NCBI RefSeq assembly: GCF_002067135.1 | Contig: NZ_CP020105.1 | Location: 1,240,001-1,304,000, forward strand | Reading direction: 5' to 3' | Origin: Spirosoma rigui | GTDB taxonomy: Bacteria > Bacteroidota > Bacteroidia > Cytophagales > Spirosomataceae | Length of the DNA: 64,000 bases | Shown here: one piece after another, positions 1 to 29,058 of the stretch | Numbering within the stretch: position 1 is the first letter of the stretch | Layout of the letters: the number at the start of each line of letters is the position of its first letter | The notes under the pieces: generated by a model | Databases searched by the model: none | What the model was told of the DNA's origin: nothing | What the model saw: the letters and a program-made list of their open reading frames with translations, nothing else | Position numbers and translations under genes: made by a program

Positions 1-173
1 GAGTTACGTTGCGTGGTATCGGGCCGGGTAGGTACTGCAGGACGCGTCGTATCTGGCTGCATACCCAGCGCACGCAGTACGTTGGGCCGGACCGGCGCTG
101 GCTGCTGCCCCCTGACTTCACCGAGCAATAGGTTTGTGGTAATAACGGCCGAAAAGACGAGACTATAGTTCAT
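1..173 (-). CDS. Secreted protein of unknown function (N-terminal part, cut by window edge)
   Basis: This is the N-terminal 57 residues of a minus-strand gene that runs off the left edge; the frame is open throughout. The product begins MNYSLVFSAVITT, a hydrophobic stretch ending near a VRG-QQ cleavage-like site, then a Pro/Thr/Arg-rich segment (RPAVPTRPDTT) typical of a low-complexity linker after a signal peptide. The frame stays open upstream to 296 with a possible GTG start at 248, but the signal peptide favours the ATG at 173. It shares its orientation with the genes at 519-1082, 2565-4280 and 4551-5471, and like them has an 11-bp repeat array upstream (364-396). The function cannot be read from this fragment. 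Confidence 0.6.
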   Translation of the reverse strand, partial: MNYSLVFSAVITTNLLLGEVRGQQPAPVRPNVLRALGMQPDTTRPAVPTRPDTTQRN

Positions 174-363
174 GTGGAAAAGGTTAGGGTAACGGTAAGT
201 AAAGTGAGTGCATAGCCGCTGATAATAAGCCCGTTGTGGTATATGCACGTGTATGATAGAATGATAATAACTAGAAATATAGAATTGGTGGATTTGTTAT
301 GGTATACGTCTTCCCGAAGCGAGCGGGTTGAGCGCAAACCAGCTCGATTGCCTCCAGGGGCAA

Positions 364-396
364 CTTAAGCAGACCTTAGAATTTGCTTAGAAATGC
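364..396 (-). promoter_or_regulatory. 11-bp direct repeat array A (3 units), candidate response-regulator operator
   Basis: Three consecutive 11-bp units start at 364, 375 and 386: CTTAAGCAGAC, CTTAGAATTTG, CTTAGAAATGC. The spacing is exactly 11 bp, about one helical turn, which is how PhoB/OmpR-type dimers bind direct half-sites. Similar arrays lie at 1158, 4341 and 5536, each upstream of a minus-strand gene. This one is about 190 bp upstream of the gene starting at 173. The rest of the non-coding stretch 174-518 holds an AT-rich part (240-300) and a small GAGCCG/CGGCTC hairpin near 413-426; I see no gene in it. Confidence 0.6.
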
Positions 397-518
397 AAAA
401 GGGGCCGAGTGAGCCGACCGGCTCCATCTCTCCTGCGTTTGTTTGTCGATCACCCCCGTACACCGAAGGTGGGGCGACTGATGAATAGGCGGAGTAGGTA
501 CCGAAAGCCGGATGGTTA

Positions 519-1082
519 CTAATCCAGGGTTGAAGCAGGCATAACGACCGTTGGTTTGTAGAACATGACTAGCGTTCCCAGCCGTTTGTTAGGGGCTGTT
601 ACGGGAGCGGAGAGTTCATAAACGGCTTTTTTGTTAAAATAAATGTCTTCTTTCTGAAGCAGGTAAACGGGAAAGCGGCTGGCAAACACAATACCCTCAT
701 TTTTTTTGTTGGTGGAGAGGGTCACTTTACCGGCGGAGTCAACCAGCAACACTTCCTGAACTCCTTTATGCTGAACCAGCGCATTGAAATACTCGCTTAT
801 TTCGCCGGGCTTGTTTTGTAATAAAGCATTCCGGACGGCCCAGCTGAAGGTTTTCATTCCAAATGTCAACTGTTGCTGATCTACAATGGCCTGATTATTC
901 TGAGCTGTTATGCGCATCAGGTTACGTTCGTGCGTAAACTGATTCGTTAACTGCCAGTTCCGGAAGAGTAAATAGCTGCAGCCGGCAAGCAACAGGATAA
1001 TGATGCCGTAGAATACGTTCCTGGGGTCCAGACTTAGTTTGGATGTTACCGTTGTTGGGGTGTTAGGTTGTTGAGTTGTCAT
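519..1082 (-). CDS. Single-pass membrane protein with a periplasmic sensor-like domain, no output domain
   Basis: 187 residues. A Gln/Thr-rich cytoplasmic N-terminus (1-22) is followed by one membrane helix (about 24-40, YGIIILLLAGCSYLLF), a helical linker (45-75) and a C-terminal region of about 110 residues. That region reads like a small Cache/PAS-type extracytoplasmic domain: VQEVLLVDSAGKVTLSTNKK, then a loop, then YELSAPVTAPNKRLGTLVMFY. The latter is the usual closing strand pair of such sensors. There is no kinase, cyclase, GGDEF or chemotaxis module, so it may act as an accessory sensor or stress subunit. It is monocistronic with repeat array B (1158-1201) upstream. The Cache-like assignment is inference; no exact family was recognised. 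Confidence 0.7.
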   Translation of the reverse strand: MTTQQPNTPTTVTSKLSLDPRNVFYGIIILLLAGCSYLLFRNWQLTNQFTHERNLMRITAQNNQAIVDQQQLTFGMKTFSWAVRNALLQNKPGEISEYFNALVQHKGVQEVLLVDSAGKVTLSTNKKNEGIVFASRFPVYLLQKEDIYFNKKAVYELSAPVTAPNKRLGTLVMFYKPTVVMPASTLD

Positions 1083-1157
1083 AGTTTATTCGTTGAGTAA
1101 TGCGTAGTAATCATCGACATAAAGTACTCGGCCGATAGCTCAAGTAACAGCGGAGAC

Positions 1158-1201
1158 GTTAGGCGGGGCTTAGGGGAGCCTTAGAATTTGGTTAGAACGT
1201 C
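1158..1201 (-). promoter_or_regulatory. 11-bp direct repeat array B (4 units), candidate response-regulator operator
   Basis: Four units start at 1158, 1169, 1180 and 1191, spaced exactly 11 bp: GTTAGGCGGGG, CTTAGGGGAGC, CTTAGAATTTG, GTTAGAACGTC. The third unit is identical to the central unit of array A. It lies 76 bp upstream of the minus-strand gene starting at 1082, and about 295 bp upstream of the plus-strand stress-protein gene at 1495, so it could serve either. The minus-strand gene is favoured because the other three arrays all precede minus-strand genes. Confidence 0.65.
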
Positions 1202-1494
1202 CCGGAAGCTACGAAAGCAATCTATCTTGGGTGATAAATTGGTTAGGACCATAAACCGTGGGTCGCGCAGCCGGGTAAAGGCCAGCAGCTCACCCGGGGC
1301 ATTCCTATCAGGCAAATACCCCGGCAATTTTGACCACCGCAGCGCCAGGAGTAGTGAGAATCACCCACCGGGTAGTGGGTGTAGCCTGGCCCAGGCAGAT
1401 TTTAAGCGAAAACTACATGGTTTTTAAGCGTATTGGTCGACTTTCGTTTTCGGCCTCACTGCGGCAAAAGCCTAGCTTGAACACATAACATCCT
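1202..1494. other. Non-coding stretch with two small palindromes
   Basis: Between array B and the universal stress protein gene there is no convincing coding sequence. It holds a hairpin with 7-bp arms CACCCAC/GTGGGTG (1362-1381), a near-palindrome GCCTGG-C-CCAGGC (1384-1396), and two copies of TTTTAAGCG (near 1402 and 1421). No clear TAnnTTTG box was found for the gene at 1495. Confidence 0.4.
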
Positions 1495-2424
1495 ATGGAC
1501 AATCACTCGACGGGAGTAATACTGGTACCTATCGACTTTACGGCGGTAACCGCTAACGCGCTGACGGTTGCCATTCGGCTGGCTCAACTGCTGAAGCTGA
1601 GTGTGCACCTGGTGCACGTGCTGGAGCCAGAGCTGATCAGTAGTGGCCTGCCCGGCAGGGTAGCGTCTGACAACGTACCGGCTTCACTCATTCAGGAAGG
1701 CACTGAACGCCTGCAGGCGCTGGCTATGCAGACGGTGCAACAACACCAGGTTGCCTGTTCAGCCAGCCACCGGGTGGGAGAGCCTGTGGAAGAAATTGCG
1801 TTCATCGGTCGGGAAACGAACACCCGGCTGATTGTAATGGGTGTTCGGCCGGGCAGCAATCTGTTGGCGCACCGACAAAATACGATTGCCTATCAACTGG
1901 TCAAAACGGCCGACAGCCCTGTGCTCACCATTCCTGCCGATCGGGTATGGCCTTCTTTCAGACGTATTCTGTTTCCAGTACGCCCCGTGCCGGGTGCGCT
2001 GGATAAATACGAATTCTCCCGGTCTTTCATCCGGGATAGTCAGACTGAATTGACGGTGCTGGCGCTGTTTAACCCTGATGAGATCATCAGCCGTCAGCAA
2101 CTGAACGACGAAATAGCCCTGCTCGACGAGAAGCTGGCTCAGGACGGTATCCGGTACCAAACCCTGTTTCAGGCTACAGAGTTAGCTGCCGAAGCTGTTC
2201 TGGGCAAAGCCACCGCTTTGGACGCCGATCTGCTGATCATTACAGCCGCTTTGAACACGACTTCAACCAACTTTTTTGTTGGCCCCTTTACCCGTCAGGT
2301 CATATACAATGCCCACCTGCCCGTGCTGGCCATTCGCCCCGAATCAACCTTGCCAACAACCACAGACCGGGTAGCCTGGCGATACGGGCAGATCGATACG
2401 GGACTGTCGGCGCTGGGCCTTTAG
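1495..2424 (+). CDS. Tandem universal stress protein (two Usp domains)
   Basis: 309 residues with two UspA-fold domains in tandem. The first (about 8-148) starts with the typical strand GVILVPIDFTAVTANAL and ends with IVMGVRPGSNLLAHRQ and SPVLTIP; its glycine-containing loop resembles the ATP-binding G-2x-G-9x-G(S/T) motif but is imperfect. The second (about 155-282) has RRILFPVRP at its start and LLIITAALNT...FVGPFTRQVIYNAHLPVLAI at its end, where the loop is more degenerate. Such proteins are cytoplasmic stress factors; in Bacteroidota tandem forms are common and their substrates mostly unknown. It is the only plus-strand gene in the block 1-5.5 kb. The fold is clear; nucleotide binding is uncertain. 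Confidence 0.9.
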   Translation: MDNHSTGVILVPIDFTAVTANALTVAIRLAQLLKLSVHLVHVLEPELISSGLPGRVASDNVPASLIQEGTERLQALAMQTVQQHQVACSASHRVGEPVEEIAFIGRETNTRLIVMGVRPGSNLLAHRQNTIAYQLVKTADSPVLTIPADRVWPSFRRILFPVRPVPGALDKYEFSRSFIRDSQTELTVLALFNPDEIISRQQLNDEIALLDEKLAQDGIRYQTLFQATELAAEAVLGKATALDADLLIITAALNTTSTNFFVGPFTRQVIYNAHLPVLAIRPESTLPTTTDRVAWRYGQIDTGLSALGL

Positions 2425-2564
2425 GATTTGCTCCGGCATACATCGCGCTCAGGTCTGGGGAGGGGATGGTCATCCGGTGGGGGCGCATTATCCCAAAATT
2501 CTGGATACAAAACCGCTACCAAAGATCGGGCTTCGGTAGCGGTATAGTACCCTATGAGCTTTTA

Positions 2565-4280
2565 TTACTGACTATCGTCGTCAGACGTAGCAATTTTGGC
2601 CAGATCCTTATTCTCAGGTAATAGCGCCAGCCCTTTTTTCAACCACTCGTTGCGGGCTGCTTCATCCTTTGTGACTAACTCATGGTAGGAGATAAGGTAC
2701 TTGAACGCAATGGCCAGGTCTTTCTTATACCGGTTTCGCTCCTCCTCTTTTCCTTCGACCATGCTGATGAACTGCTCGAAGTGAGGCTTTGCCTTGCCGT
2801 TACGTACTGCTTCTTCGGGTGTATAGGCGTAGTAGTTTGCTTTGGCCCGGTAAAGCACCGTTGGCACGTAATCGGGAGTTGCCTGTTGAGCCAGGGCCAG
2901 CGCAGAGTCGGCCAGGGCAAAGCGCGTGGTGTCGCGAATCAGTTTGCCCAGGCTATCGCGCTGGAAACCCAGCGTATAGTTACTCATACCGTAACGAAAC
3001 AAATCCTGCACATCGGCTTTGAAACCATGCCGAGCGGCAGAGTCGAGGGTGGCAACGGCCTGCGGGTGCTTCTTGGCGCGGTAGTAATACTTGGCAATGT
3101 CGCCATACAGGTTATCGGTCGTATCGAAGGGGGCGGCTTTTTCCAGATAAACGATCCCCAGCGAGTCGTTAATGGCTTTTAACGAATCGCTGCCGGCATT
3201 CTCGATACCCAGATAGGCTTGTCCCAGATACTTGTAATCGTCATACATGACTTTGTCTGGGGCTTTGTTGAGGAACGTATTGATGTTCTCGATGGCCTCC
3301 TGTGGTTTCTTGAGGGACGAATAAGCCCAGCCCTGAATGCGGTAGACAATGGGGTTTTGCGCCAGTGTAGTGCGGTTGCTATCGATCAGGTCAACCGTGC
3401 GCTGGTAGTCCTTGGCCAGAAAGTGAAACTGGGCCTGCCGCAGCAGCGTTTCCGGGCGTCGATCGTTCGATACCCGTACGTACTGATCCTGGTAGTTGGC
3501 GGCCTCTTTATACCGGTTTACCAGAAAATACAGTTCCGACAGCTGGCTGTAGGCCGGAGCGTAGTTGGGGTTAGCATCGATGGCCTTCTTGTAGTTTTCG
3601 ACGGCCAGATTCAGGTTGCGGCCCTGCCAGTAAATGTCGCCGATGCGCTGGTATGCCCGTGAAGGGTTCATACCCAGTTCAATGGCGCTCTCGTAGCGAG
3701 AAACGGCCGTACCTGCATCCCGGTTCAGGTAATGCGCATCGCCCAGAACCAGTTGAATGGCTGCGTTCTTCTTGTCACGCTCGGCGGCCCGGTTCAGGTA
3801 ATCGATAGCCTTGGCCGCGTTGACTACCTTCGGAAAGCGGGGTTTGATCGAGCCGCTATCGGGGGTAAGGTAACCAGTGTAGGCTTCGCCAATCCGGTAC
3901 AGAATATCCGCATTCTTTCCTTTGCTTGTCTTAACGACTTCCTCCAGGTTGGGGTCGGCCTGGGCCGCATTATTCTGGACAAGGTAGCTAATGGCCATGC
4001 CGGTCTTGTTGAGCGGAACCCGTTTTTCGTCCAATGGTACGCCCTGCTCGAACCAGGTGCGGGCCGAGTCGGGCTGACCCGCCCGGAGGTACCCGTAGCC
4101 CGCGTCGAAATAAGATTGCATGGATGGATTCTGCCGGGCTTGCCGGGTCAGCAGTTGCTTGGCTTCGGCAAAGCGTCCCTGATTCATCAGGGTAGCTGCG
4201 TCGGGGGCCGTCTGTTGAGCCAGTGCCGTCTGTGACAGCCCCGCCCCGGCTAGTAGTAAGCCAATAAGTTGCGTTTTCAT
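2565..4280 (-). CDS. Secreted TPR-repeat protein
   Basis: 571 residues. A clear signal peptide (MKTQLIGLLLAGAGLSQTALA, cleavage before QQ) is followed by tetratricopeptide repeats almost to the C-terminus. Readable TPR helices include RAGQPDSARTWFEQG, LNLAVENYKKAIDANPNYAPAYSQLSELY, YKEAANYQDQYVRV, KPQEAIENINTFLNKAP and KHPQAVATLDSAARHG. There is no enzymatic domain, so it probably acts as a periplasmic or outer-membrane scaffold. It is expressed alone, with repeat array C 61-105 bp upstream, and its neighbours are a coiled-coil membrane protein and an orphan sensor-like protein under the same repeat type. A role in envelope stress or assembly is inference. Confidence 0.88.
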   Translation of the reverse strand: MKTQLIGLLLAGAGLSQTALAQQTAPDAATLMNQGRFAEAKQLLTRQARQNPSMQSYFDAGYGYLRAGQPDSARTWFEQGVPLDEKRVPLNKTGMAISYLVQNNAAQADPNLEEVVKTSKGKNADILYRIGEAYTGYLTPDSGSIKPRFPKVVNAAKAIDYLNRAAERDKKNAAIQLVLGDAHYLNRDAGTAVSRYESAIELGMNPSRAYQRIGDIYWQGRNLNLAVENYKKAIDANPNYAPAYSQLSELYFLVNRYKEAANYQDQYVRVSNDRRPETLLRQAQFHFLAKDYQRTVDLIDSNRTTLAQNPIVYRIQGWAYSSLKKPQEAIENINTFLNKAPDKVMYDDYKYLGQAYLGIENAGSDSLKAINDSLGIVYLEKAAPFDTTDNLYGDIAKYYYRAKKHPQAVATLDSAARHGFKADVQDLFRYGMSNYTLGFQRDSLGKLIRDTTRFALADSALALAQQATPDYVPTVLYRAKANYYAYTPEEAVRNGKAKPHFEQFISMVEGKEEERNRYKKDLAIAFKYLISYHELVTKDEAARNEWLKKGLALLPENKDLAKIATSDDDSQ

Positions 4281-4340
4281 GTGCGTTGAGTTTAGCTGTT
4301 TTGTCTTCTATAAGGTTGATGGCACAAACTACACCGCTGA

Positions 4341-4385
4341 GTTAAGAGGAAGCTTAGAGATTACTTAGAATTAGATTAGAGGCAG
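4341..4385 (-). promoter_or_regulatory. 11-bp direct repeat array C (3 phased units plus one offset)
   Basis: Units start at 4353, 4364 and 4375 (CTTAGAGATTA, CTTAGAATTAG, ATTAGAGGCAG), exactly 11 bp apart, with a fourth related unit GTTAAGAGGAAG at 4341 that is 12 bp away. It sits 61-105 bp upstream of the TPR gene start at 4280. Reading towards the gene, a TAGTTTG sequence resembling the Bacteroidota -7 box follows within about 10 bp, so the array would cover the -33 region, the usual place for an activator. Confidence 0.65.
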
Positions 4386-4421
4386 AAATTAGGGTACTTT
4401 TCCTTACTTAAAAGCTATTTT

Positions 4422-4494
4422 GAACGCCGGAATGCAGCGCGTGCCTACAATTCCGACTAATGAGTCTTCAGCGATGTGCTGCGTTCCGGCGTTC
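4422..4494 (-). terminator. Long imperfect hairpin after the coiled-coil gene
   Basis: Arms at 4422-4440 and 4476-4494 match at 17 of 19 positions as an inverted repeat (core GAACGCCGGAA / TTCCGGCGTTC); both mismatches are of the type that pairs as G-U in RNA. It lies about 57 bp beyond the stop codon of the gene ending at 4551, in the direction of its transcription, followed by AAAATAGCTTTTAAG rather than a clean U tract. A terminator or mRNA 3'-end stabiliser is likely. Confidence 0.5.
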
Positions 4495-4550
4495 GCTGAC
4501 CGTACTGCGAACCGGTACGTATTAGCAGAAACGACCATTCAGCCCAATCC

Positions 4551-5471
4551 TCAAAAGAACCAGAAGCTATCCCGAAGCTGAAATTCAACCGATCCCAGGT
4601 AATGGGTTTTTGTATACACAGCTGCCCGGTACCTACCCGGCTTGAGCGACTGCTGCGGTTCGATCCCGAACGAAATTCGATGATCGCCCGCTCCAAAGTC
4701 GACCGACTGTTCACTATGAACTGGTATCACTTTATTAACGTCGGCCAGATTTACGGTAATCGTTCGCCGGGGTGGAATCACAGTGGCGCTGGATTCGTGG
4801 GTCAGGCTGACGAAGACATCCTGTCGGCCCTGCAATCCCAGTTCGGGCGATACGGTAAGCGATAGGGTCAGGGTTTTCACTTTTTTGGCCTTAGCCGTTT
4901 CTTTCCGGTTCGCCTTTTCGGCATCGACCCGGAATCTGTCACCCGTCAGCGCCGTGCGCGGAGCCATCATCAGCGCCTGGTTGGTCAATGTTGCAATAGT
5001 TTCATCGAGCTGGCTGGTCCGATTGGTCAACACGGTATTCGAGTCCGTCAGCCAGCCAATTTTGTCGCTCATTGCCGTGAGCTGGTTGGTCAGGCTATCA
5101 CGTGTCGTTGTTAGTCGGCTAAGCCGCTCGTTAAGCTGGCGGCTGCTTCGTGCCCACTCGGCCGAACGCCCTGCCAATGCCCGGCGGCTCATTTCTAAAC
5201 GGTTCTGCCGAGTCGTAGCGTCCTCTAATTGTTGTTGTAAGGCGGTCTGATCCGTTCGGGCCAGGGCTAACTGGTTGTTTAGCGACCGGGTATCGCTTTC
5301 GAGTTTCCACGTTGCCGACTGCAGTGAATCGGCCCGCGCCCGGGACCGGTTGTGCAACTGGGTCAAACTCCGGTTCTGATTCCAGTAAAATAGTCCACCA
5401 GCCAGAAACGCTGCTGACAGGCCACCGAGTAACCAGGTGATCCAGCCGCTTTTTTGTTCGTTGTCGTCCAT
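4551..5471 (-). CDS. Membrane-anchored coiled-coil protein with C-terminal beta domain
   Basis: 306 residues. A short acidic cytoplasmic N-terminus precedes one membrane helix (about 12-28, WLLGGLSAAFLAGGLFYW). A long coiled coil follows (about 35-165) with many Arg/Gln/Leu/Thr heptads. After a basic linker (RKETAKAKKVKTLTL) the C-terminal 110 residues are beta-rich (LSLTVSPELGLQGRQDVFVSLTH, FGIEPQQSLKPGRYRAAVYTK). The topology suggests a periplasmic rod carrying a small beta-sandwich. No family was recognised. It is divergent from the response regulator at 5892 and preceded by repeat array D, which makes it a good candidate target of that regulator. Confidence 0.8.
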   Translation of the reverse strand: MDDNEQKSGWITWLLGGLSAAFLAGGLFYWNQNRSLTQLHNRSRARADSLQSATWKLESDTRSLNNQLALARTDQTALQQQLEDATTRQNRLEMSRRALAGRSAEWARSSRQLNERLSRLTTTRDSLTNQLTAMSDKIGWLTDSNTVLTNRTSQLDETIATLTNQALMMAPRTALTGDRFRVDAEKANRKETAKAKKVKTLTLSLTVSPELGLQGRQDVFVSLTHESSATVIPPRRTITVNLADVNKVIPVHSEQSVDFGAGDHRISFGIEPQQSLKPGRYRAAVYTKTHYLGSVEFQLRDSFWFF

Positions 5472-5535
5472 GTTCGTCTATACGTTAGGGTTTACCTTTA
5501 TGCTGGCAAAATTCCGGCGCAGGGTTTACAGAAAC

Positions 5536-5568
5536 CTTAACGAGCCATTAGAATCTGATTAGAGGCTG
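5536..5568 (-). promoter_or_regulatory. 11-bp direct repeat array D (3 units), candidate response-regulator operator
   Basis: Units start at 5536, 5547 and 5558, exactly 11 bp apart: CTTAACGAGCC, ATTAGAATCTG, ATTAGAGGCTG. The array is 65-98 bp upstream of the coiled-coil gene (start 5471, minus strand) and 324-356 bp upstream of the divergent response regulator, so it could also serve autoregulation. Confidence 0.65.
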
Positions 5569-5891: not shown

Positions 5892-6563
5892 ATGAAGATC
5901 CTTTTAGTTGAAGACGAAGAGCGGCTGGCTTCTTTTATCCGAAAAGGCATGTCGGCCGAGGGCTACGAAGTTGAAGTAGCTTACGATGGTCGTACCGGCC
6001 TGTCGTTGTTTCGTCGGGATATTTATGACATAATCATTCTGGATGTGAATCTGCCACAGATGAACGGCTTTGACCTGTGCCGGCTCATCCGCTCCGAAAA
6101 TGAGAGCGTTCCCGTGCTGATGCTCACCGCCCTGGACAGCATGGCCGACAAGTCGGATGGTTTCAACGCCGGTGCCGATGACTACCTGGCCAAACCGTTC
6201 GAATTTCAGGAGTTGCTGCTACGCGTCAGAGCGCTGACGCGCCGGAGTGGCTCCAAGCCGAAGCAAATACTACGGCTGGCCGATCTGGAGCTCAACCTGG
6301 ACAGCAAGACTGTAACGCGCGCGGGCAAACGCATTGACCTGACCACCCGCGAATACGCGCTGGTGGAATACATGATGCTCAACAAGGGGAAAATCATCTC
6401 ACGTGTCGATATCAGTGAACGCGTCTGGAGTCTTAATTTTGATAACAACAGCAACGTTATCGACGTGTATATCAGCTACCTGCGTAAAAAGATTGACAAA
6501 GACTTCTCCCCAAAACTGTTGCATACCATTGTGGGTATGGGATACGTTCTTCGGGAAAATTAA
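5892..6563 (+). CDS. OmpR/PhoB-family response regulator
   Basis: 223 residues, the normal length for this family. The receiver domain (1-120) has the acidic pair in LLVEDEE, phospho-acceptor Asp51 (IIILDVNLPQ), the Thr switch in VLMLTA and Lys101 (DDYLAKPF). The winged-helix DNA-binding domain (about 128-222) has the usual TTREYALVEYMM, ISRVDISERVW and VIDVYISYLRKKID segments. It pairs with the kinase at 6636, although a REP element separates the two genes. This family binds direct repeats of about 11 bp, which fits the four 11-bp arrays upstream of the minus-strand genes nearby; that link is inference. The general type is that of CusR/ArlR-like regulators. Confidence 0.95.
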   Translation: MKILLVEDEERLASFIRKGMSAEGYEVEVAYDGRTGLSLFRRDIYDIIILDVNLPQMNGFDLCRLIRSENESVPVLMLTALDSMADKSDGFNAGADDYLAKPFEFQELLLRVRALTRRSGSKPKQILRLADLELNLDSKTVTRAGKRIDLTTREYALVEYMMLNKGKIISRVDISERVWSLNFDNNSNVIDVYISYLRKKIDKDFSPKLLHTIVGMGYVLREN

Positions 6564-6635: not shown

Positions 6636-7991
6636 GTGCTCATTCGAAATCGCCTGACCATTATTTTTACCTTGCTGGCTACGGCCATCCAGCTTACGTT
6701 ATCGCTGCTGGTTTGGTATTTCTATTCATTGTACCGGCAGGAGGAATTTTACAGTCGGCTGGAGTCGAAAGCCCGCGTGGCAGGGCGGGTGCTTATTTCC
6801 CGGCGGCATTTACACGACGACTTTTTTAAGAACATGGTGCGCACCGATTTGCTCACCATCGTGGAGGAGCAGATCAGTATTTATGATACCCGTCACAACC
6901 TGGTGTTTACCAACAGGACCCTGAAAGAATCGGATTACTACAAAGAGAAGATACCACTGCTGGCTACCGACCCGCTGTTCGAATTCAAGAGCGACCATCT
7001 CGAATCCATTGTAATACCCTACAAGGATCGCGGGCAGTTGTTCTACATTTTTGCCTCCGGCTACGACCGCATTGGCTTTGCCAAGTTGGGTACGCTGCAA
7101 AAGATCATGCTCCTGGCCAATTTGTTCGGCTTCACGCTGATCGTACTGGCGGGCTGGTATTTCTCCGGCCGGGTGCTCAATCCGATCTCGCAGATTGTCG
7201 ATGAGGTGGAGCAGATCACCGCTACGCATTTGTACAAACGAGTGAACGAAGGAAACCGGCGCGACGAAATTGCTCAACTCGCCATGACCTTCAACCAGAT
7301 GCTGTTTCGACTGGAAGACGCCTTTGTCTCCCAGCGTAGTTTTGTGGCTCATGCTTCCCACGAACTCCGCACGCCACTTACCAATACCCTGGGCACGCTG
7401 GAAACATCGCTTCGGTATGACCATAACCCTGGCGACTGGCGCGACAGCATGGAAATTGCCGTTGAAGAACTGAAAAAAGTGATCGCGCTGACGAATGGGT
7501 TGCTGGGGCTGGCCAAAGTTACCGACGGAACCGTGGCCCTGTCGGTCGTCCAGGTAGACGATTGTCTGCTTACGGCTATCGGACATGTGCAGGCCAAGTA
7601 TCCGGGCCGTAGCATCCCGCTCCAATTCGAGACAGACGACGAGGAATCTTTCACGGTAAAAGGCAACGCAACCTTGCTGACAACTGCGTTGCTGAATATA
7701 CTCGACAATGCCTGCAAGTACTCGGGCGAAGCAGTTGCGGTACAGCTACAGTCTCGTAAAGAACTGATCACAATAACAGTAACCGACCAGGGACGCGGTA
7801 TCTCCGAAACCGACGCAGCGCACATTTTCGATCCCCTGTACCGGGGTGAAAATGTGGAAGGGGTTCCCGGATACGGTATTGGGCTGGCCGTAACGCAGAA
7901 GATTATCGACCTCCACCAGGGTACCCTGCACATCAACTCCGCCGTTAACCAGGGAACCACCGTTGCCATTACCCTGCCAAGTTTGGCGTAA
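6636..7991 (+). CDS. Membrane sensor histidine kinase (HAMP, HisKA, HATPase)
   Basis: 451 residues. GTG start giving MLIRNRLTIIFTLL and the first membrane helix (about 8-29). A periplasmic region of about 135 residues follows, then a second helix (about 166-184), HAMP (185-237), the HisKA dimerisation domain with phospho-acceptor His242 (HASHELRTPLTNTL), and the HATPase domain with N box (LLNILDNACKYSG), G1 (VTDQGRGIS) and G2 (GYGIGLAVTQKII). It is the cognate partner of the response regulator just upstream. Translation starts 10 bp after the REP element, and the low-efficiency GTG start may lower kinase level relative to regulator. The ligand cannot be predicted. Confidence 0.93.
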   Translation: MLIRNRLTIIFTLLATAIQLTLSLLVWYFYSLYRQEEFYSRLESKARVAGRVLISRRHLHDDFFKNMVRTDLLTIVEEQISIYDTRHNLVFTNRTLKESDYYKEKIPLLATDPLFEFKSDHLESIVIPYKDRGQLFYIFASGYDRIGFAKLGTLQKIMLLANLFGFTLIVLAGWYFSGRVLNPISQIVDEVEQITATHLYKRVNEGNRRDEIAQLAMTFNQMLFRLEDAFVSQRSFVAHASHELRTPLTNTLGTLETSLRYDHNPGDWRDSMEIAVEELKKVIALTNGLLGLAKVTDGTVALSVVQVDDCLLTAIGHVQAKYPGRSIPLQFETDDEESFTVKGNATLLTTALLNILDNACKYSGEAVAVQLQSRKELITITVTDQGRGISETDAAHIFDPLYRGENVEGVPGYGIGLAVTQKIIDLHQGTLHINSAVNQGTTVAITLPSLA

Positions 7992-8141: not shown

Positions 8142-8337
8142 GATTTGGTATGCCGTGTTTAATGCGGCTGCATAACGCCTGTTACCGGCTAAAAGCCTGT
8201 TTTTTGGCAATTTGTGGGTTTTTTAGCGGTTAGGGTCATTTTCAGTTTTGGATATTTTTAATGCGTTCTAATTTCCTTCTCACACGGTTTTAATGTTACC
8301 GGGCTTGATTTGTGTAAAAGCATCATGGACACAAGCT

Positions 8338-8682: not shown

Positions 8683-9774
8683 ATGAAAAGAAGTCACATT
8701 CTCATGAGCTTGTTCGGCTTGTTCGCCTTGGTAGGTACTATAGGCTGTTCATCGAATGCGGAAGAAAAGAAAGAAGAGGACGTAAAATTCCTGGTCACTA
8801 GTCCACTCCTGAAAGATACACTGGCTACTAAAGACTACGTATGTCAGGTCCACTCCATTCAGCACATCGAAGTGCGGGCGCTCGAGAAGGGCTACCTGCA
8901 AAAGATTTTTGTGGACGAGGGGCAGTACGTGAAGAAGGGACAACTTATGTTCCAGATCATGCCCGTGATCTACAACGCCGAACTTCAGAAATCACAGGCC
9001 GAAGCCAACTACGTGGGTATCGAACTCCAGAACACCAAGCGGCTGGCCGATAGCAACATCGTGTCGAAAAATGAACTGGCGCTGGCCAGAGCTAAGTTCG
9101 ACAAGGCCAACGCCGACGTTACACTGGCTAAAACCCACCTGCAGTTTACCGAAATCCGCGCGCCGTTCAGCGGGATTATGGATCACTTCCAGGTACGGCT
9201 GGGTAGCCTCCTCGACGATGGTGATTTGCTGACTACGCTGTCGGACAACAGCAAAATGTGGGTGTATTTCAACGTGCCCGAAGCCGAGTACCTTGACTTC
9301 AAAAGCCACCATGACGACAACATGAAGCACGTAAGACTGGTGATGGCGAATAACGAACTGTTCGACCAGCCCGGTGAAGTACAGACCATCGAAGCCGACT
9401 TCAACAACGAAACGGGTAACATTGCCTTCCGGGCTACCTTCCCCAACCCCAAAGGCCTCCTGCGCCATGGCGAAACCGGCAGCGTACGCATGACGGTACC
9501 GCTCAAAAATGCCCTCATCATCCCGCAGAAAGCCACCTTCGAAGTCCTCGAGAAGAAGTACGTCTATGTCGTCGACAAGAACAACACGATCCGGTCGAGA
9601 GAGATCACCATTGGGGCTGAAATGCCGCACATATTCGTCGTTCAGTCCGGTTTGAACAAAGGCGACAAGATCCTGCTGGAAGGCTTACGTCAGGTAAAAG
9701 AAAACGAAAAGATTCACTACAATTTCGTGCAACCTGCCTCTGTCATCTCAAATCTGGGTCTGTACGCTGAGTAA
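8683..9774 (+). CDS. RND efflux periplasmic adaptor (membrane fusion protein, AcrA/MexA family)
   Basis: 363 residues. A lipoprotein signal peptide ends in LVGTIGC, with lipidated Cys22. The biotinyl-lipoyl half motifs (IEVRALEKGYLQKIFVDEGQYVKKGQLMFQI and FTEIRAPFSGIMDHFQVRLGSLLDDG) flank a short alpha-hairpin (about 90-145), followed by a beta-barrel and membrane-proximal domain (to about 350). It bridges the inner-membrane pump and the outer-membrane channel encoded by the next two genes, 24 bp downstream. Substrates of such pumps are usually drugs, solvents or metabolites and cannot be read from the sequence. Confidence 0.95.
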   Translation: MKRSHILMSLFGLFALVGTIGCSSNAEEKKEEDVKFLVTSPLLKDTLATKDYVCQVHSIQHIEVRALEKGYLQKIFVDEGQYVKKGQLMFQIMPVIYNAELQKSQAEANYVGIELQNTKRLADSNIVSKNELALARAKFDKANADVTLAKTHLQFTEIRAPFSGIMDHFQVRLGSLLDDGDLLTTLSDNSKMWVYFNVPEAEYLDFKSHHDDNMKHVRLVMANNELFDQPGEVQTIEADFNNETGNIAFRATFPNPKGLLRHGETGSVRMTVPLKNALIIPQKATFEVLEKKYVYVVDKNNTIRSREITIGAEMPHIFVVQSGLNKGDKILLEGLRQVKENEKIHYNFVQPASVISNLGLYAE

Positions 9775-9798
9775 TCAACCAATCTAAAAGGAGAAGAC

Positions 9799-12700
9799 AT
9801 GTTCAATAAATTCATACGTAGACCTGTGTTCGCCATCGTGATTTCGATCATGATCGTGTTCATTGGTGTACTGGCCATCAAAAGCCTGCCCATATCTCAG
9901 TTTCCTGATATTGCCCCCACAACGGTCAATATATTCATTGCCTACCCCGGTTCCAGTGCCGACGTACTGGTTAAATCCACGCTGATTACCCTGGAACAGG
10001 CAATCAACGGCGTTCAGGACATGCGCTACATCGCTACTGATGCAACCAGTGCTGGTGAAGCTACCCTACGTATCATTTTTGAACCGGGTACCGACCCGAA
10101 CACTGCCGTCATCAGGGTCAAAACGAGGGTGGACCAGGTAATGCCGCTCTTGCCCGAACTGGTGCAGCGTGAAGGGGTCGTTATCTCGCCCGTTCAGCCC
10201 AGTATGCTGATGTACGTCAACCTTTTTTCCAAGGAAAAGAGCATTGACGAAAAATTCCTGTTTAACTACGCTACCGTTAAAATGATCCCTGAAATTCAGC
10301 GGACCAAAGGGGTTGCCAGGGCGCAAATCCTGGGTAGCCGGCGGTATGCTATGCGCGTATGGCTCAACCCGGAGCGGATGCGGGCCTACAATATTTCGAC
10401 CGAAGAGGTGATGAAGGCGATTGGTGAACAGAGTATTATCGGTCGGCCGGGCCGGATCGGTCAAAGCTCCGGTATAGCCGCTCAGTCGCTGGAATACGTA
10501 CTGACCTACAAGGGTCGGTATAACAAGCCGGAAGAGTACGAAGGAATCATTGTCCGGGCCAATGCCGCCGGCGAAAGCATTCACCTGAAAGACATTGCCA
10601 AGGTCGAGCTGGGCAGCGAATTCTTTGATATCTACTCTAACCTGGATGGTCATGCGTCGGCTGCTATCGTGTTGCGGCAAAACTATGGTAGTAATGCCAG
10701 TGATGTTATTAAGGAAGTCAAAGAGAAGCTCGAAGTAATGAAAGCGTCTTTCCCGCCGGGGGTAGACTACAAAATCAGCTACGACGTATCGAACTTCCTG
10801 GACGCGTCCATCGAGCAGGTAATCGATACCCTGCGCGATGCCTTCCTGCTGGTGGCGCTGGTGGTGTTTATCTTCCTGGGCGACTGGCGTTCGACGCTGA
10901 TTCCGATCCTGGCCGTTCCGGTATCGCTGATCGGAGCCTTCTTTGTGATCCAGGCTTTTGGCCTTTCCATCAACCTGATTACGCTCTTCGCCCTGGTACT
11001 GGCCATTGGTATTGTGGTCGATGATGCCATCGTGGTCGTGGAAGCGGTACACGCCAAGATGGAAGAAGAACCGCATTTGACGCCTTTCAAGGCGGTCCAG
11101 AAAGTGCTGGGCGAGATCAGTGGTGCAATTATCGCCATTACCCTCGTGATGGTATCGGTGTTCCTGCCGATCTCGTTCATGTCGGGTCCGGTGGGTACGT
11201 TCTACCGGCAGTTCTCGATCACTATGGCCAGCTCCATTGTAATTTCGGCCCTGATCGCGTTAACACTGACGCCGGTGTTGTGCGCCATGCTGCTGAAAAA
11301 TCACCACGGCCATCCGCCCAAGAAGAATATACTGACCCGGGCGCTCGACCGTTTCAACCGCGGATTTGACAGGATGACTGGCTGGTACGTAGGCTTGCTG
11401 AAATTAATCGTCAGTCGCCGGTTTGTTACGTTCGCCATCCTGATTGGTTTCTGCGCGGGTATCGTCGTGGTGAATAAAATCCTGCCTGCCGGCTTCATCC
11501 CGAACGAAGACCAGAGTACGATCTATGCCATTATCCAGACGCCCCCGGGCTCGACGCTGGAAAAAACGAACGAGGTTTCCCGGCGACTCCAGAAAATTTG
11601 TGAAGAAGTACCCGGTATTGAGTCCGTGTCGTCGCTGGCCGGCTACGAGATCATGACCGAAGGTCGGGGTTCTAACGCCGGTACCTGTCTGATCAACCTG
11701 AAGACCTGGGATGATCGGGATAAAAACGTGAAAGAGATCATGGAAGAGCTGGAAGAAAAATCGAGAAACCTCGGCGCGACAGTCGAATTCTTCGAGCCAC
11801 CGGCTATTCCGGGCTTCGGTACATCGGGTGGTTTCTCCATGCGTCTGCTCGATAAAACGACTGATACTGACTACAGCGAGTTCGACAAGATCAACAAGCA
11901 GTTCATGGATAATCTGAGCAAGCGTAAAGAGCTTACGGGCTTGTTTACCTTCTTTGCTGCCAACTATCCGCAGTACGAACTGGAGATCGACAACAAGCTG
12001 GCCATGCAGAAGGGCGTGTCGATCGGGAAAGCGATGGACAACCTGAACATTATGATTGGTAGTACCTACGAGCAAGGGTTTATCAAGTACAACCAGTTCT
12101 TTAAGGTATACGTCCAGTCGGACCCCAGCTTCCGCCGGCTTCCAACTGATCTGCTGAAGCTCTTTGTTAAAAACGACGAGGGTGAAATGGTACCGTACTC
12201 CGCGTTCATGCACCTGAAGAAAGGCCAGGGCCCCAACGAGATCACCCGCTTCAACCTGTATAATTCGGCGGCTATTCAGGGCCTTCCGGCCAAGGGGTAT
12301 ACCACCGCCGATGCTATTCAGGCCATCCGGGAAGTGGCAGCCAAAACATTGCCAAAAGGATATGACATTGCCTTCGAAGGGCTGTCGTACGACGAATCGA
12401 TACGGGGTAACGAGGCTCTGTACGTGTTCCTGATCGTACTATCCTTTGTGTACTTCGTACTGGCCGCCCAATACGAAAGTTTTATCATTCCGCTGGCCGT
12501 TGTATTCTCGCTGCCGGTGGGGGTATTCGGATCGTTCCTGCTGCTGAAGCTGATGGGGCTGGAGAACAATATCTACGCTCAGATCGGTCTCATCATGCTG
12601 ATTGGTCTGCTGGGCAAGAACGCTGTACTGATCGTGGAATTTGCCGTTCAGAAACGACAGCAGGGCGAAACGATTCTGAATGCGGCCATTGAAGGAGCCA

Positions 12701-13002
12701 AGGTTCGTTTCCGGCCCATTCTGATGACCTCGTTCGCTTTCGTTGCTGGTCTGATACCGCTGATCAGTGCAACGGGGGCCGGTGCAATTGGTAACCGGAC
12801 CATCGGTGCATCGGCACTGGGGGGCATGTTATTCGGGACCATTTTCGGGGTCATCATTATCCCCGGCTTATACTACATATTCGGTAGTCTGGCCGATGGC
12901 CGCAAGATGATCAAAGATGAGGAAGCCGATTCGTTGACCGACAATCTGGTTCATCAGCTAGACGCTTTTCCCGTAACCGAAGAAAGTACGAACCATGTTT
13001 AA
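9799..13002 (+). CDS. RND efflux pump inner-membrane transporter (AcrB/MexB, HAE1 family)
   Basis: 1067 residues, full length. It starts with the family N-terminus MFNKFIRRPVFAIVISIMIVFIG and has 12 membrane helices in two sets split by two large periplasmic loops. The proton-relay acids lie in the fourth helix segment LAIGIVVDDAIVVVEA, and the matching lysine lies in GLLGKNAVLIVEF. Drug/proton antiport across the inner membrane follows from the family. The last 8 bp overlap the next gene, which shows translational coupling. The pump is complete, with no missing key residues. Confidence 0.97.
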   Translation: MFNKFIRRPVFAIVISIMIVFIGVLAIKSLPISQFPDIAPTTVNIFIAYPGSSADVLVKSTLITLEQAINGVQDMRYIATDATSAGEATLRIIFEPGTDPNTAVIRVKTRVDQVMPLLPELVQREGVVISPVQPSMLMYVNLFSKEKSIDEKFLFNYATVKMIPEIQRTKGVARAQILGSRRYAMRVWLNPERMRAYNISTEEVMKAIGEQSIIGRPGRIGQSSGIAAQSLEYVLTYKGRYNKPEEYEGIIVRANAAGESIHLKDIAKVELGSEFFDIYSNLDGHASAAIVLRQNYGSNASDVIKEVKEKLEVMKASFPPGVDYKISYDVSNFLDASIEQVIDTLRDAFLLVALVVFIFLGDWRSTLIPILAVPVSLIGAFFVIQAFGLSINLITLFALVLAIGIVVDDAIVVVEAVHAKMEEEPHLTPFKAVQKVLGEISGAIIAITLVMVSVFLPISFMSGPVGTFYRQFSITMASSIVISALIALTLTPVLCAMLLKNHHGHPPKKNILTRALDRFNRGFDRMTGWYVGLLKLIVSRRFVTFAILIGFCAGIVVVNKILPAGFIPNEDQSTIYAIIQTPPGSTLEKTNEVSRRLQKICEEVPGIESVSSLAGYEIMTEGRGSNAGTCLINLKTWDDRDKNVKEIMEELEEKSRNLGATVEFFEPPAIPGFGTSGGFSMRLLDKTTDTDYSEFDKINKQFMDNLSKRKELTGLFTFFAANYPQYELEIDNKLAMQKGVSIGKAMDNLNIMIGSTYEQGFIKYNQFFKVYVQSDPSFRRLPTDLLKLFVKNDEGEMVPYSAFMHLKKGQGPNEITRFNLYNSAAIQGLPAKGYTTADAIQAIREVAAKTLPKGYDIAFEGLSYDESIRGNEALYVFLIVLSFVYFVLAAQYESFIIPLAVVFSLPVGVFGSFLLLKLMGLENNIYAQIGLIMLIGLLGKNAVLIVEFAVQKRQQGETILNAAIEGAKVRFRPILMTSFAFVAGLIPLISATGAGAIGNRTIGASALGGMLFGTIFGVIIIPGLYYIFGSLADGRKMIKDEEADSLTDNLVHQLDAFPVTEESTNHV

Positions 13003-14425
13003 AAAACTCATATATACAGGTCTGGGTCTTACCTGCATGACGTTAGCCATAACGTCATGCAAAACCCCGGCGCTGGTTACGCGAATAGAGAACCGAAACG
13101 TTCCCACCCGTTTCAACGTGGAAGGCGATACCCTCAACACGGGTAGAGCCAGATGGCGGGACTTCTTCACCGATCCGAACCTGGCCGCACTGATTGATAC
13201 AGCCCTGGGCAATAACCAGGAACTGAACATTTCGCTGCAGGAGATTCAGATCGCTCAGAACGAAATACGGGCCAGAACGGGAGAGTACCTGCCGTTTGTG
13301 GGCTTGCAGGCGGGAGCAGGTGTCGATAAAGTAGGTCGATACACCCGGTCAGGGGCCATTGAAGAAAGTACGGAAATCCGGCCCGGCCATAACTTCCCCA
13401 ATCCGCTGCCCGACTTTCTCCTGTCGGCCAATGCGTCCTGGCAGGTTGACATCTGGAACAAGTTGCACAACGCGAAGCGAGCAGCCGCCATCCGGTATTT
13501 GTCGTCCATCGAAGGGAGAAACTTCACCGTCACGAACCTGGTGGCCGAGATTGCCAATTCGTATTACGAATTGCTGGGGCTCGACACGCAGTTGGACATC
13601 GTCAAGCGTAACATTGATATCCAGACCAACGCGCTCTCTATCGTACGAACAGAAAAAGAGTCGGCCAAAGTGACCGAACTGGCGGTACGGCGGTTTGAAG
13701 CCCAGGTGTTGCGTACCCAGAGTCTTCAGTTCGATATTCAGCAGCGGATTACGGAAACTGAGAACCACATCAATTTTCTGGTAGGTCGGTTCCCGCAGCC
13801 GGTGCAGCGGACAGCGCAGGACCTTAATACGCTGGTGCCCGAAGTGATGCATGCCGGTATTCCGTCGCAGCTCTTGCAAAACCGCCCTGATATCCGGCGG
13901 GCCGAGCGGGAACTGGAGGCTTCCAAACTGGATGTACAGGTCGCCAGGGCTAACTTCCTGCCATCGCTGGACCTTTCCGCTGCCGTGGGGTTCAATTCAT
14001 ATAAGCCAACGCTGCTGCTGACGCCCGAATCCCTGTTGTATTCTTTGATTGGCGGCTTTACCCGGCCACTTATTAACCGGAACGCGATAAAGTCGATGTA
14101 CTACAGCGCGAATGCCAGGCAGATTCAGGCCGTTTACAATTACGAACGAACCATTCTGAACGCCTACGTTGAAGTAGCCAACCAGCTGGCTAGTATCAAT
14201 AACCTGCAAAAAAGCTACGATCTGAAAGCAAAGCAGGTGGAGGCCCTCATTCAATCGACCAATATTTCGAATACGCTCTTCAAGTCGGCGAGAGCTGATT
14301 ACATGGAAGTATTGCTGACCCAGCGCGACGCCCTGGAATCGCGGTTCGATCTGGTAGAAACCAAAGTACAGCAGCTCAATGCCATGGTTAATACCTACCG
14401 GGCGTTGGGTGGCGGCTGGAAGTAA
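12995..14425 (+). CDS. RND efflux outer-membrane lipoprotein channel (TolC/NodT family)
   Basis: 476 residues. A lipoprotein signal ends in AITSC, with Cys22 as lipidation site. Two OEP repeats (about 55-245 and 265-470) contain the long helices and porin strands of TolC-like channels; typical segments are GNNQELNISLQEIQIAQNEIRARTG, ELLQNRPDIRRAE and ADYMEVLLTQRDALESRFDL. It is the third component of the tripartite pump; its ATG lies inside the last codons of the transporter gene. A strong terminator follows at 14462. Confidence 0.95.
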   Translation: MFKKLIYTGLGLTCMTLAITSCKTPALVTRIENRNVPTRFNVEGDTLNTGRARWRDFFTDPNLAALIDTALGNNQELNISLQEIQIAQNEIRARTGEYLPFVGLQAGAGVDKVGRYTRSGAIEESTEIRPGHNFPNPLPDFLLSANASWQVDIWNKLHNAKRAAAIRYLSSIEGRNFTVTNLVAEIANSYYELLGLDTQLDIVKRNIDIQTNALSIVRTEKESAKVTELAVRRFEAQVLRTQSLQFDIQQRITETENHINFLVGRFPQPVQRTAQDLNTLVPEVMHAGIPSQLLQNRPDIRRAERELEASKLDVQVARANFLPSLDLSAAVGFNSYKPTLLLTPESLLYSLIGGFTRPLINRNAIKSMYYSANARQIQAVYNYERTILNAYVEVANQLASINNLQKSYDLKAKQVEALIQSTNISNTLFKSARADYMEVLLTQRDALESRFDLVETKVQQLNAMVNTYRALGGGWK

Positions 14426-28933: not shown

Positions 28934-29029
28934 AATTATTTGCGAATCTGTTGTGTTGGTGTTAACATATTGATTTTTAGTGGGTTGCTGTTTCGTCCAA
29001 TGTTAATTCAAGGGTAACACTGAGGTAAC

Positions 29030-29058
29030 GTTGGCGTAATATTGGGCTGGTAGCTTTG
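29030..29058 (+). promoter_or_regulatory. Bacteroidota-type promoter of the TonB receptor gene
   Basis: The -7 box TAGCTTTG (29051-29058) is an exact TAnnTTTG match, and GTTG at 29030-29033 sits 17 bp upstream as a -33 box. Transcription would begin near 29065, leaving a leader of about 40 nt before the ATG at 29107. This rules out the longer in-frame start at 29056. Confidence 0.65.

Follow-up and report, generated by a model that had tools for sequence, protein, structure and literature searches.

The DNA analysed here is a stretch of 64,000 nucleotides from Spirosoma rigui (contig NZ_CP020105.1, positions 1,240,001 to 1,304,000; hereafter the window), near the start of which four genes on the minus strand are each preceded by a short array of repeats with a period of 11 bp. 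These arrays, the promoter-like frame in which they stand, and the OmpR-type response regulator RR-B, which is encoded far outside the window and is probably their reader, are the subject of this study. The four genes encode a TonB-dependent-receptor-like outer membrane protein (887 aa from its ATG), whose 5′ end lies in the window (3..173, minus strand) with the remainder outside it (L258:5511-8174), the protein P0003 (519..1082, minus strand; 187 aa, with an apparent N-terminal hydrophobic segment and no Pfam or NCBIfam match at E 0.001), a TPR-repeat protein (2565..4280, minus strand; 571 aa, with an apparent signal peptide) and an apparently membrane-anchored coiled-coil protein (4551..5471, minus strand; 306 aa). 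The neighbours of the arrays on the plus strand are another OmpR-family response regulator, RR-A (5892..6563), its presumed partner histidine kinase (6636..7991) and, next to RR-A, the genes of an RND efflux system comprising a membrane fusion protein, an AcrB-type pump and an outer membrane factor (8683..14425).

All four arrays were found in the letters themselves, by 11-bp pair counts and by a profile search, and they occupy 349..392, 1154..1197, 4338..4381 and 5521..5564 on the minus strand, upstream of the gene starting at 173, P0003, the TPR gene and the coiled-coil gene, respectively. Read on the coding strand, each array consists of four 11-bp units of the form (T/C)TCTAAG-N4, the best units being TTCTAAG-N4. 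The array at 349..392, TTCTAAGCAAA TTCTAAGGTCT GCTTAAGTTGC CCCTGGAGGCA, is a four-unit array of the RR-B type with a barely recognisable unit 4, the array at 4338..4381 has a last step of 12 bp, and the one at 5521..5564 is the weakest of the window's four. The initial annotation had placed the arrays correctly, at 364, 1158, 4341 and 5536, and the single 12-bp step that it reported at 4341 is real; its count of three or four units each becomes four per array, with a weaker fourth unit completing each of them, and at 364 and 5536 two units read TTAG and the third reads TTAA. Seven TTAG pairs at 11-bp spacing were observed on both strands, against a mean of 1.05 and a maximum of 5 under Markov-1 resampling (n = 200), while all other spacings from 7 to 30 bp gave at most three pairs each, the three at 22 bp coming from the same arrays. 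A 36-position profile returned exactly the four arrays in the 64 kb, with E values from 1.3e-8 to 6.7e-5. The sequence-only models, in 36-column and 62-column versions, were trained on 53 sites of ten other genomes, without the Spirosoma rigui genome. Exact TTAG triplets were discarded as a genome-wide test in favour of the profile, being too strict and also picking up other kinds of site (255296, 1867578), and a loose fixed-grid regular expression recovers one of the window's four arrays, so that its empty results elsewhere carry little weight.

The frequency of the motif at random and its conservation beside orthologues had been proposed as checks, and both came out in favour of the arrays. 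The pattern TCTAANNNNNTTCTAAG gave 229 matches in 36 genomes against 37 for a reversed-pattern control, overlapping units of one array being counted separately. Orthologues of the coiled-coil gene were retrieved from other genomes with 1.5 kb flanks, and at identities of at least 40% an array was present at 18 of 21 loci (L010-L030, the misses being L013, L014 and L028), with exact 11-bp CTAA pairs located beside the gene or before the next gene and with TTCTAAGNNAATTCTAAGNANTCTTTAAG as a frequent form. The homologues of P0003 and of the TPR protein in relatives are likewise preceded by an array, and arrays are also kept beside OtsAB, as described below.

Across the whole 5.83 Mb genome, the 36-column profile reported ten sites at E<0.01. 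Nine are located upstream of a gene or open frame, namely the genes of the TonB-type protein (at 173), P0003, the TPR protein and the coiled-coil protein, a TreZ-like gene, OtsAB, the gene of an RND membrane fusion protein, a short frame of 52 aa with a Na+/H+ antiporter gene behind it, and an open frame of 77 aa; at the tenth no gene is evident. The 62-column model recovered nine of the ten at E<1e-4, with the 77-aa site down to 0.03, and added a site at 3425268 that is part of the locus of a further regulator, RR-C. A weak array before a DUF4136 lipoprotein gene scored E 0.18 with the 36-column and E 0.64 with the 62-column model. In some relatives the targets also include TreS-maltokinase, Usp and DUF4136 genes; the TreS, Usp and better DUF4136 sites belong to these relatives and not to the S. 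rigui genome. In the relative G001, the curated models gave OtsAB 956.6 bits against a cut-off of 634 and TreS 900 against 678, the maltokinase part and the TreZ-like and antiporter matches of the same genome stayed under their curated cut-offs, and the Usp, DUF4136, membrane-fusion and Na+/H+ exchanger domains were above the Pfam cut-offs. No phosphate-acquisition gene was found among the annotated targets, which number about a dozen and are a subset of all targets. The regulon of secreted or membrane proteins that had been suggested does include envelope proteins, and it is wider, with trehalose synthesis, ion antiport and efflux prominent. This combination of trehalose, ion antiport and envelope targets suggests a regulon for osmotic, desiccation or envelope stress, which would also be the kind of stimulus to expect.

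The OtsAB gene was followed in 18 chosen genomes, namely the five RR-B-less ones that are nearly complete and, of the 29 Spirosoma genomes with RR-B, 13. An OtsAB orthologue of at least 69% identity was present in 12 of the 13 genomes with RR-B and in one of the five without, and it carries an array in 10 of these 12 RR-B genomes, the array being absent in G023, the single RR-B-less genome with OtsAB. Among four distant OtsAB paralogues, three had no array and the fourth was not located.

The alignment of 140 sites on the array alone made visible an element that is unclear on single promoters. The set contains own-genome and orthologous sites, rows having been removed only if their first 60 bases were identical, and in it the units stand at 0, 11, 22 and 33 and the columns 51-57 are conserved, with A at 51 in 69%, T at 54 and 55 in 99% each, T at 56 in 61% and G at 57 in 54% of the sites. 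The TT at grid 54-55 was observed in 53 of 53 relatives' sites in a gap-free alignment and in 10 of 10 own sites, the latter having a chance probability of 1.3e-12 at the window's mean TT frequency and a somewhat higher one in AT-rich spacers; the 36-column model and the 33-column matrix used to find and frame the sites stop short of the TT columns. This -7-like element, missed by the initial annotation, stands at a fixed distance from each array of the window, as CTGGTTTG at 335..342 (minus strand; grid 50-57), TTACTTGA at 1140..1147 (minus strand; TT at 54-55, then G, with the full TTTG absent), TAGTTTGT at 4324..4331 (minus strand; TTTG shifted one base early) and GAATTTTG at 5507..5514 (minus strand). 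Under the spacing rule given in PMC6847099, the transcription start for the first of these is predicted near 330, and starts at about grid position 62 of the four arrays would fall at 330, 1135, 4319 and 5502. The -7 element of the Bacteroidota primary sigma factor is described in the available text of PMC9723704 and PMC6847099 as TAnnTTTG at -12 to -5, and the -33 motif, in that of the second, as much less evident; the expected -33 place is occupied here by array units 3-4. The TT-containing element is the best candidate for the -7 box of this sigma factor and hence for the promoter core, in which case unit 4 would cover about -29 to -23, the region bound by activators of the PhoB type. A -7 box of low strength would be in keeping with a promoter that needs an activator.

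The regulator whose presence tracks the arrays is RR-B, encoded with a histidine kinase at G000:C1:4517262-4517936 on the minus strand, and located inside or near array clusters in relatives. It is 56% identical to RR-A and, over its full length, matches OmpR-family models as well as the structures 1kgs and PhoP/PrrA; the Pfam domain search covered RR-A. In the phylogenetic tree, the RR-B sequences form one group, separate from RR-A and RR-C, and a comparison of 24 RR-A with 27 RR-B sequences revealed 11 near-fixed differing columns in the C-terminal part, including S/N and V/F, which, by analogy with PhoB, may belong to the recognition helix and the wing and determine specificity.

RR-B was called in the genus at E<=1e-95 and at least 79% identity, and it was detected in 29 of 36 Spirosoma genomes, with 5-13 array pattern matches each, whereas the seven genomes without it have 3, 0, 0, 2, 1, 0 and 0 matches (p 2.3e-5; p 2.2e-4 in the 32 genomes that are at least 90% complete). 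A family sample of 160 genomes gave the same association, with 1-15 sites (mean 6.2) in the 36 genomes with RR-B and 0-3 sites in the 124 genomes without it, 82 of which have none (p 6e-22; RR-B matches at E<=1.2e-118, and no match in the 62 genomes absent from the match list), and outside the genus the comparison of 18 genomes with RR-B and 121 without it gave p 1e-13. In the genera g3 and g8, the RR-B-less members (G087; G042 and G088) have no arrays and the members with RR-B have 7, 7 and 1 and 7, 5 and 7, respectively. The two are also located together: of 80 loci from named genomes, an array (score 18) lay within the retrieved flank at all 33 with at least 77% identity to RR-B, compared with 7 of the 47 others, and at 25 of the 33 it lies 2.0-2.3 kb past the RR-B start, behind the kinase gene. 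Three of these seven other array-bearing loci are Emticicia homologues, which belong to the sister group of RR-B and have the array just before the regulator start; L210 and L215, of the same sister group, have no array.

Some individual RR-B loci deserve mention. Two RR-B copies each were found in G031 (92% and 79% identical) and G035 (84% and 83%), and the 79% copy of G031 lies near a coiled-coil/TPR block resembling that of the window, suggesting that this block was formerly beside RR-B. The contig L188 bears the label Flavobacterium sp. SUN052; it has an RR-B of 84% identity with a Spirosoma-like array cluster, and its assembly is probably mislabelled or contaminated.

Several observations weigh against RR-B as the reader, or against the promoter frame. 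The RR-B-less genomes G003, G019 and G023 each keep one array, and this persistence implies that another regulator can use a similar unit. Two genomes of the family sample, G063 and G099 (71% complete), have RR-B and only one site, the OtsAB genes of G009 and of G020 (both copies) lack an array despite RR-B, and no array stands before the RR-B gene in the S. rigui genome itself, although one does at 12 of the 33 relatives' loci. The strong own site at 4513982-4514041 has no evident gene. None of the 53 relatives' sites has the full TAnnTTTG at the fixed position, and in the wider set 4 of 140 have it; the 53 sites fit it in part, with TTTG at 54 in 25, TTTG at 53 in 8 and A at 51 in 36. In addition, presence and absence is unable to tell RR-B from another cluster gene lost together with it, and the genomes are related, so that the p-values overstate independence.

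Two of these places show further features. In two of these RR-B-less genomes (L055 and L060), the gene of an efflux outer membrane factor is preceded by a TTCTAAG array with some four to five units. The site without a gene (L104:5840-6042, that is G000:4513982-4514041 on the minus strand and the sequence downstream) has an array and a -7-like element, followed about 150 bp on by a hairpin that has a run of T and resembles a terminator. Both this hairpin and the array are conserved in S. utsteinense, and the site is a candidate for a small RNA or, alternatively, for a promoter left over from a rearrangement.

Boxes on the same grid were also observed at the loci of the paralogous regulators. 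The RR-A-type box, TTTTTAATGCG TTCTAATTTCC TTCTCACACGG TTTTAATGTTA, lies at 8255..8298 on the plus strand, upstream of the efflux operon, and is followed at 8305..8312 (plus strand) by the -7-like element TTGATTTG with the grid offset of the RR-B arrays; the two kinds of box agree in grid and -7 offset, except that unit 1 of the RR-A box is displaced by one base. It was found in the window and in eight of the 12 relatives retrieved, with TTTG one base early in L285, while a ninth, L283, has a variant with an extra base; it was not found in L286, L287 and L289 (G004, G017 and G005). RR-C is 61% identical to RR-B, and of the four genomes checked at its locus, three (G000, G017 and G009) have a TTTAAG box behind the kinase gene and G022 has none. 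The half-sites read TTTAAT/TTCTAAT for RR-A, TTCTAAG for RR-B and TTTAAGG for RR-C, the boxes being assigned to their regulators by location, and it seems that the frame is shared and the half-site differs between regulators. Whether paralogous OmpR-type regulators of Spirosoma (for the RR-B box, also of other Spirosomataceae) read a shared frame with half-sites that diverged after duplication, with RR-B as the lineage's stress regulator, we consider an even chance. In the RR-C neighbourhood (L275:4295-5327), an apparently membrane-anchored protein is encoded behind a TTTAAG box, and its homologues in other genomes may correspond to the distant relatives that the orthologue search returned for the window's coiled-coil protein.

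Further sites of this kind were seen outside these loci. At 29001-29058 of the window (plus strand), a four-unit box on the same grid with another unit, TGTTAATTCAA GGGTAACACTG AGGTAACGTTG GCGTAATATTG, then N6 and TAGCTTTG, lies about 50 bp before the ATG at 29108 of a TonB-dependent receptor gene and may belong to yet another OmpR-type regulator. The response regulator at L100:6578-7346, whose receiver seems to carry Thr in place of the phosphorylated Asp (VTPELP), is closely preceded by a five-fold, interleaved CTAA array, with an RND pump gene in the vicinity. The RR-B profile did not return the TTAG array of three units at about L101:5579-5604 (G000:1867578-1867603), which precedes a TerB-domain gene by about 190 bp.

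The response regulator at 5892, RR-A, had been proposed to bind the arrays, and we now find this improbable. RR-A is adjacent to them in the window, where the array at 5536 lies between it and the divergent coiled-coil gene, its own box contains a TTCTAAT unit, and an array adjoins it in G027, G010 and G007, a point that also counts against RR-B. Array counts, however, show no association with RR-A: at a cut-off of at least 85% identity, which is our own choice, 24 of the 36 genomes have it, and the mean number of matches is 6.3 in these and 6.5 in the 12 others, among which G028 has an 83% fragment (p 0.53). G004 and G017 contain RR-A at 90% identity and zero array matches, 20 of 24 RR-A orthologue loci are free of arrays (1.5 kb flank, score 12), and in relatives RR-A is distant from the array clusters, as in G001, with RR-A at 3501766 and arrays at 3156079-3180296. 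The lack of association, the array-free RR-A genomes and the distinct box at its own operon, in the window and eight relatives, led us to drop RR-A as main reader, and it is probably not the reader. A rather unlikely possibility is that several paralogous OmpR-type regulators share the arrays, so that the sites integrate the signals of RR-B and its relatives; the common grid, -7 spacing and similar T.TAA units at the RR-A, RR-B and RR-C loci would fit this, as would the single arrays surviving without RR-B, but genomes without RR-B have nearly no arrays, and the TTTAAG box of the RR-C locus is kept in G017, which has neither RR-B nor TTCTAAG matches.

Repression instead of activation is a reading to which we give little probability. 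At 12 of the relatives' 33 RR-B loci the array stands 46-111 bp before RR-B and is inverted relative to it, a possible autoregulatory site of either sign, but in the arrays generally the end of unit 4 lies about 10 bp before the -7-like element, near the activating geometry of Salmonella PhoP boxes as given in the accessible text of PMC3335776. Chance or low-complexity repeats without function deserve hardly any credence, the shortness of the unit being all that speaks for them, and conservation and the profile scan contradict them. We therefore regard the arrays, with good though not full confidence, as promoter-proximal operators of one OmpR/PhoB-family regulator, RR-B, that would activate stress genes. 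In this mechanism, the histidine kinase encoded with RR-B would phosphorylate it, and RR-B dimers would bind head to tail on the four 11-bp half-sites, the last of which would take the place of the -33 element. From this position near the -7-like element, bound RR-B would be expected to bring RNA polymerase to the promoter, like PhoB at the pho box, and would probably switch on the genes for trehalose synthesis, Na+/H+ antiport, RND efflux and envelope proteins.

The arrays resemble known operators in several respects. The pho box of E. coli and others, according to the consulted part of PMC4415409, consists of tandem 11-nt direct repeats with seven conserved and four less conserved bases, bound head to tail by PhoB, and the tandem direct repeats with a period of about 11 bp found here support the OmpR/PhoB type of operator that had been suggested. 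The pho box unit, however, is CTGTCAT, whereas the Spirosoma arrays have four units of TTCTAAG and a Bacteroidota promoter, and the Pho regulon comprises phosphate genes, in contrast to the trehalose, ion and envelope genes targeted here; RR-B also stays under the PhoB family cut-offs (161.7 bits against 296.2 for TIGR02154 and 161 against 270 for NF053854). The activating PhoP boxes of Salmonella lie 12 nt from the -10 element, and their architectures I and II are direct repeats whose orientation is fixed and which precede it by about one helical turn, as here, as far as the accessible text of PMC3335776 describes them; the arrays differ in unit, sigma factor and regulon and have four units in one run. 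The heavy-metal regulators CusR/CzcR/CopR (TIGR01387) are the top NCBIfam match of both RR-A (256.9) and RR-B (252.3), below the curated cut-off of 279.2, and although one own array target is an RND efflux operon, most RR-B targets are unlike metal genes. PhoPR of Riemerella anatipestifer is, like RR-B, a two-component regulator of Bacteroidota; the available part of PMC9603813 reports, from DAP-seq data, TTTAACA as the most conserved motif bases and binding upstream of its own operon, that is, another motif and regulon, and notes no 11-bp array on a promoter grid. No description of this motif or regulon was found in a search of the open-access literature.

Taken together, the comparison suggests a regulon of a known kind, with a PhoB-like operator, whose likely regulator is no longer the adjacent gene but one that lies far outside the window. 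To our knowledge, few response-regulator regulons have been mapped in Bacteroidota, and this one has been resolved to single bases purely by comparison, predicting transcription starts and targets for a lineage of environmental bacteria. Because the paralogous regulators seem to use different half-sites on one frame, they offer a test case for the co-evolution of regulators and operators without cross-talk and, if the shared frame with diverged half-sites holds true, would form a natural series for studying the mutual insulation of two-component systems.

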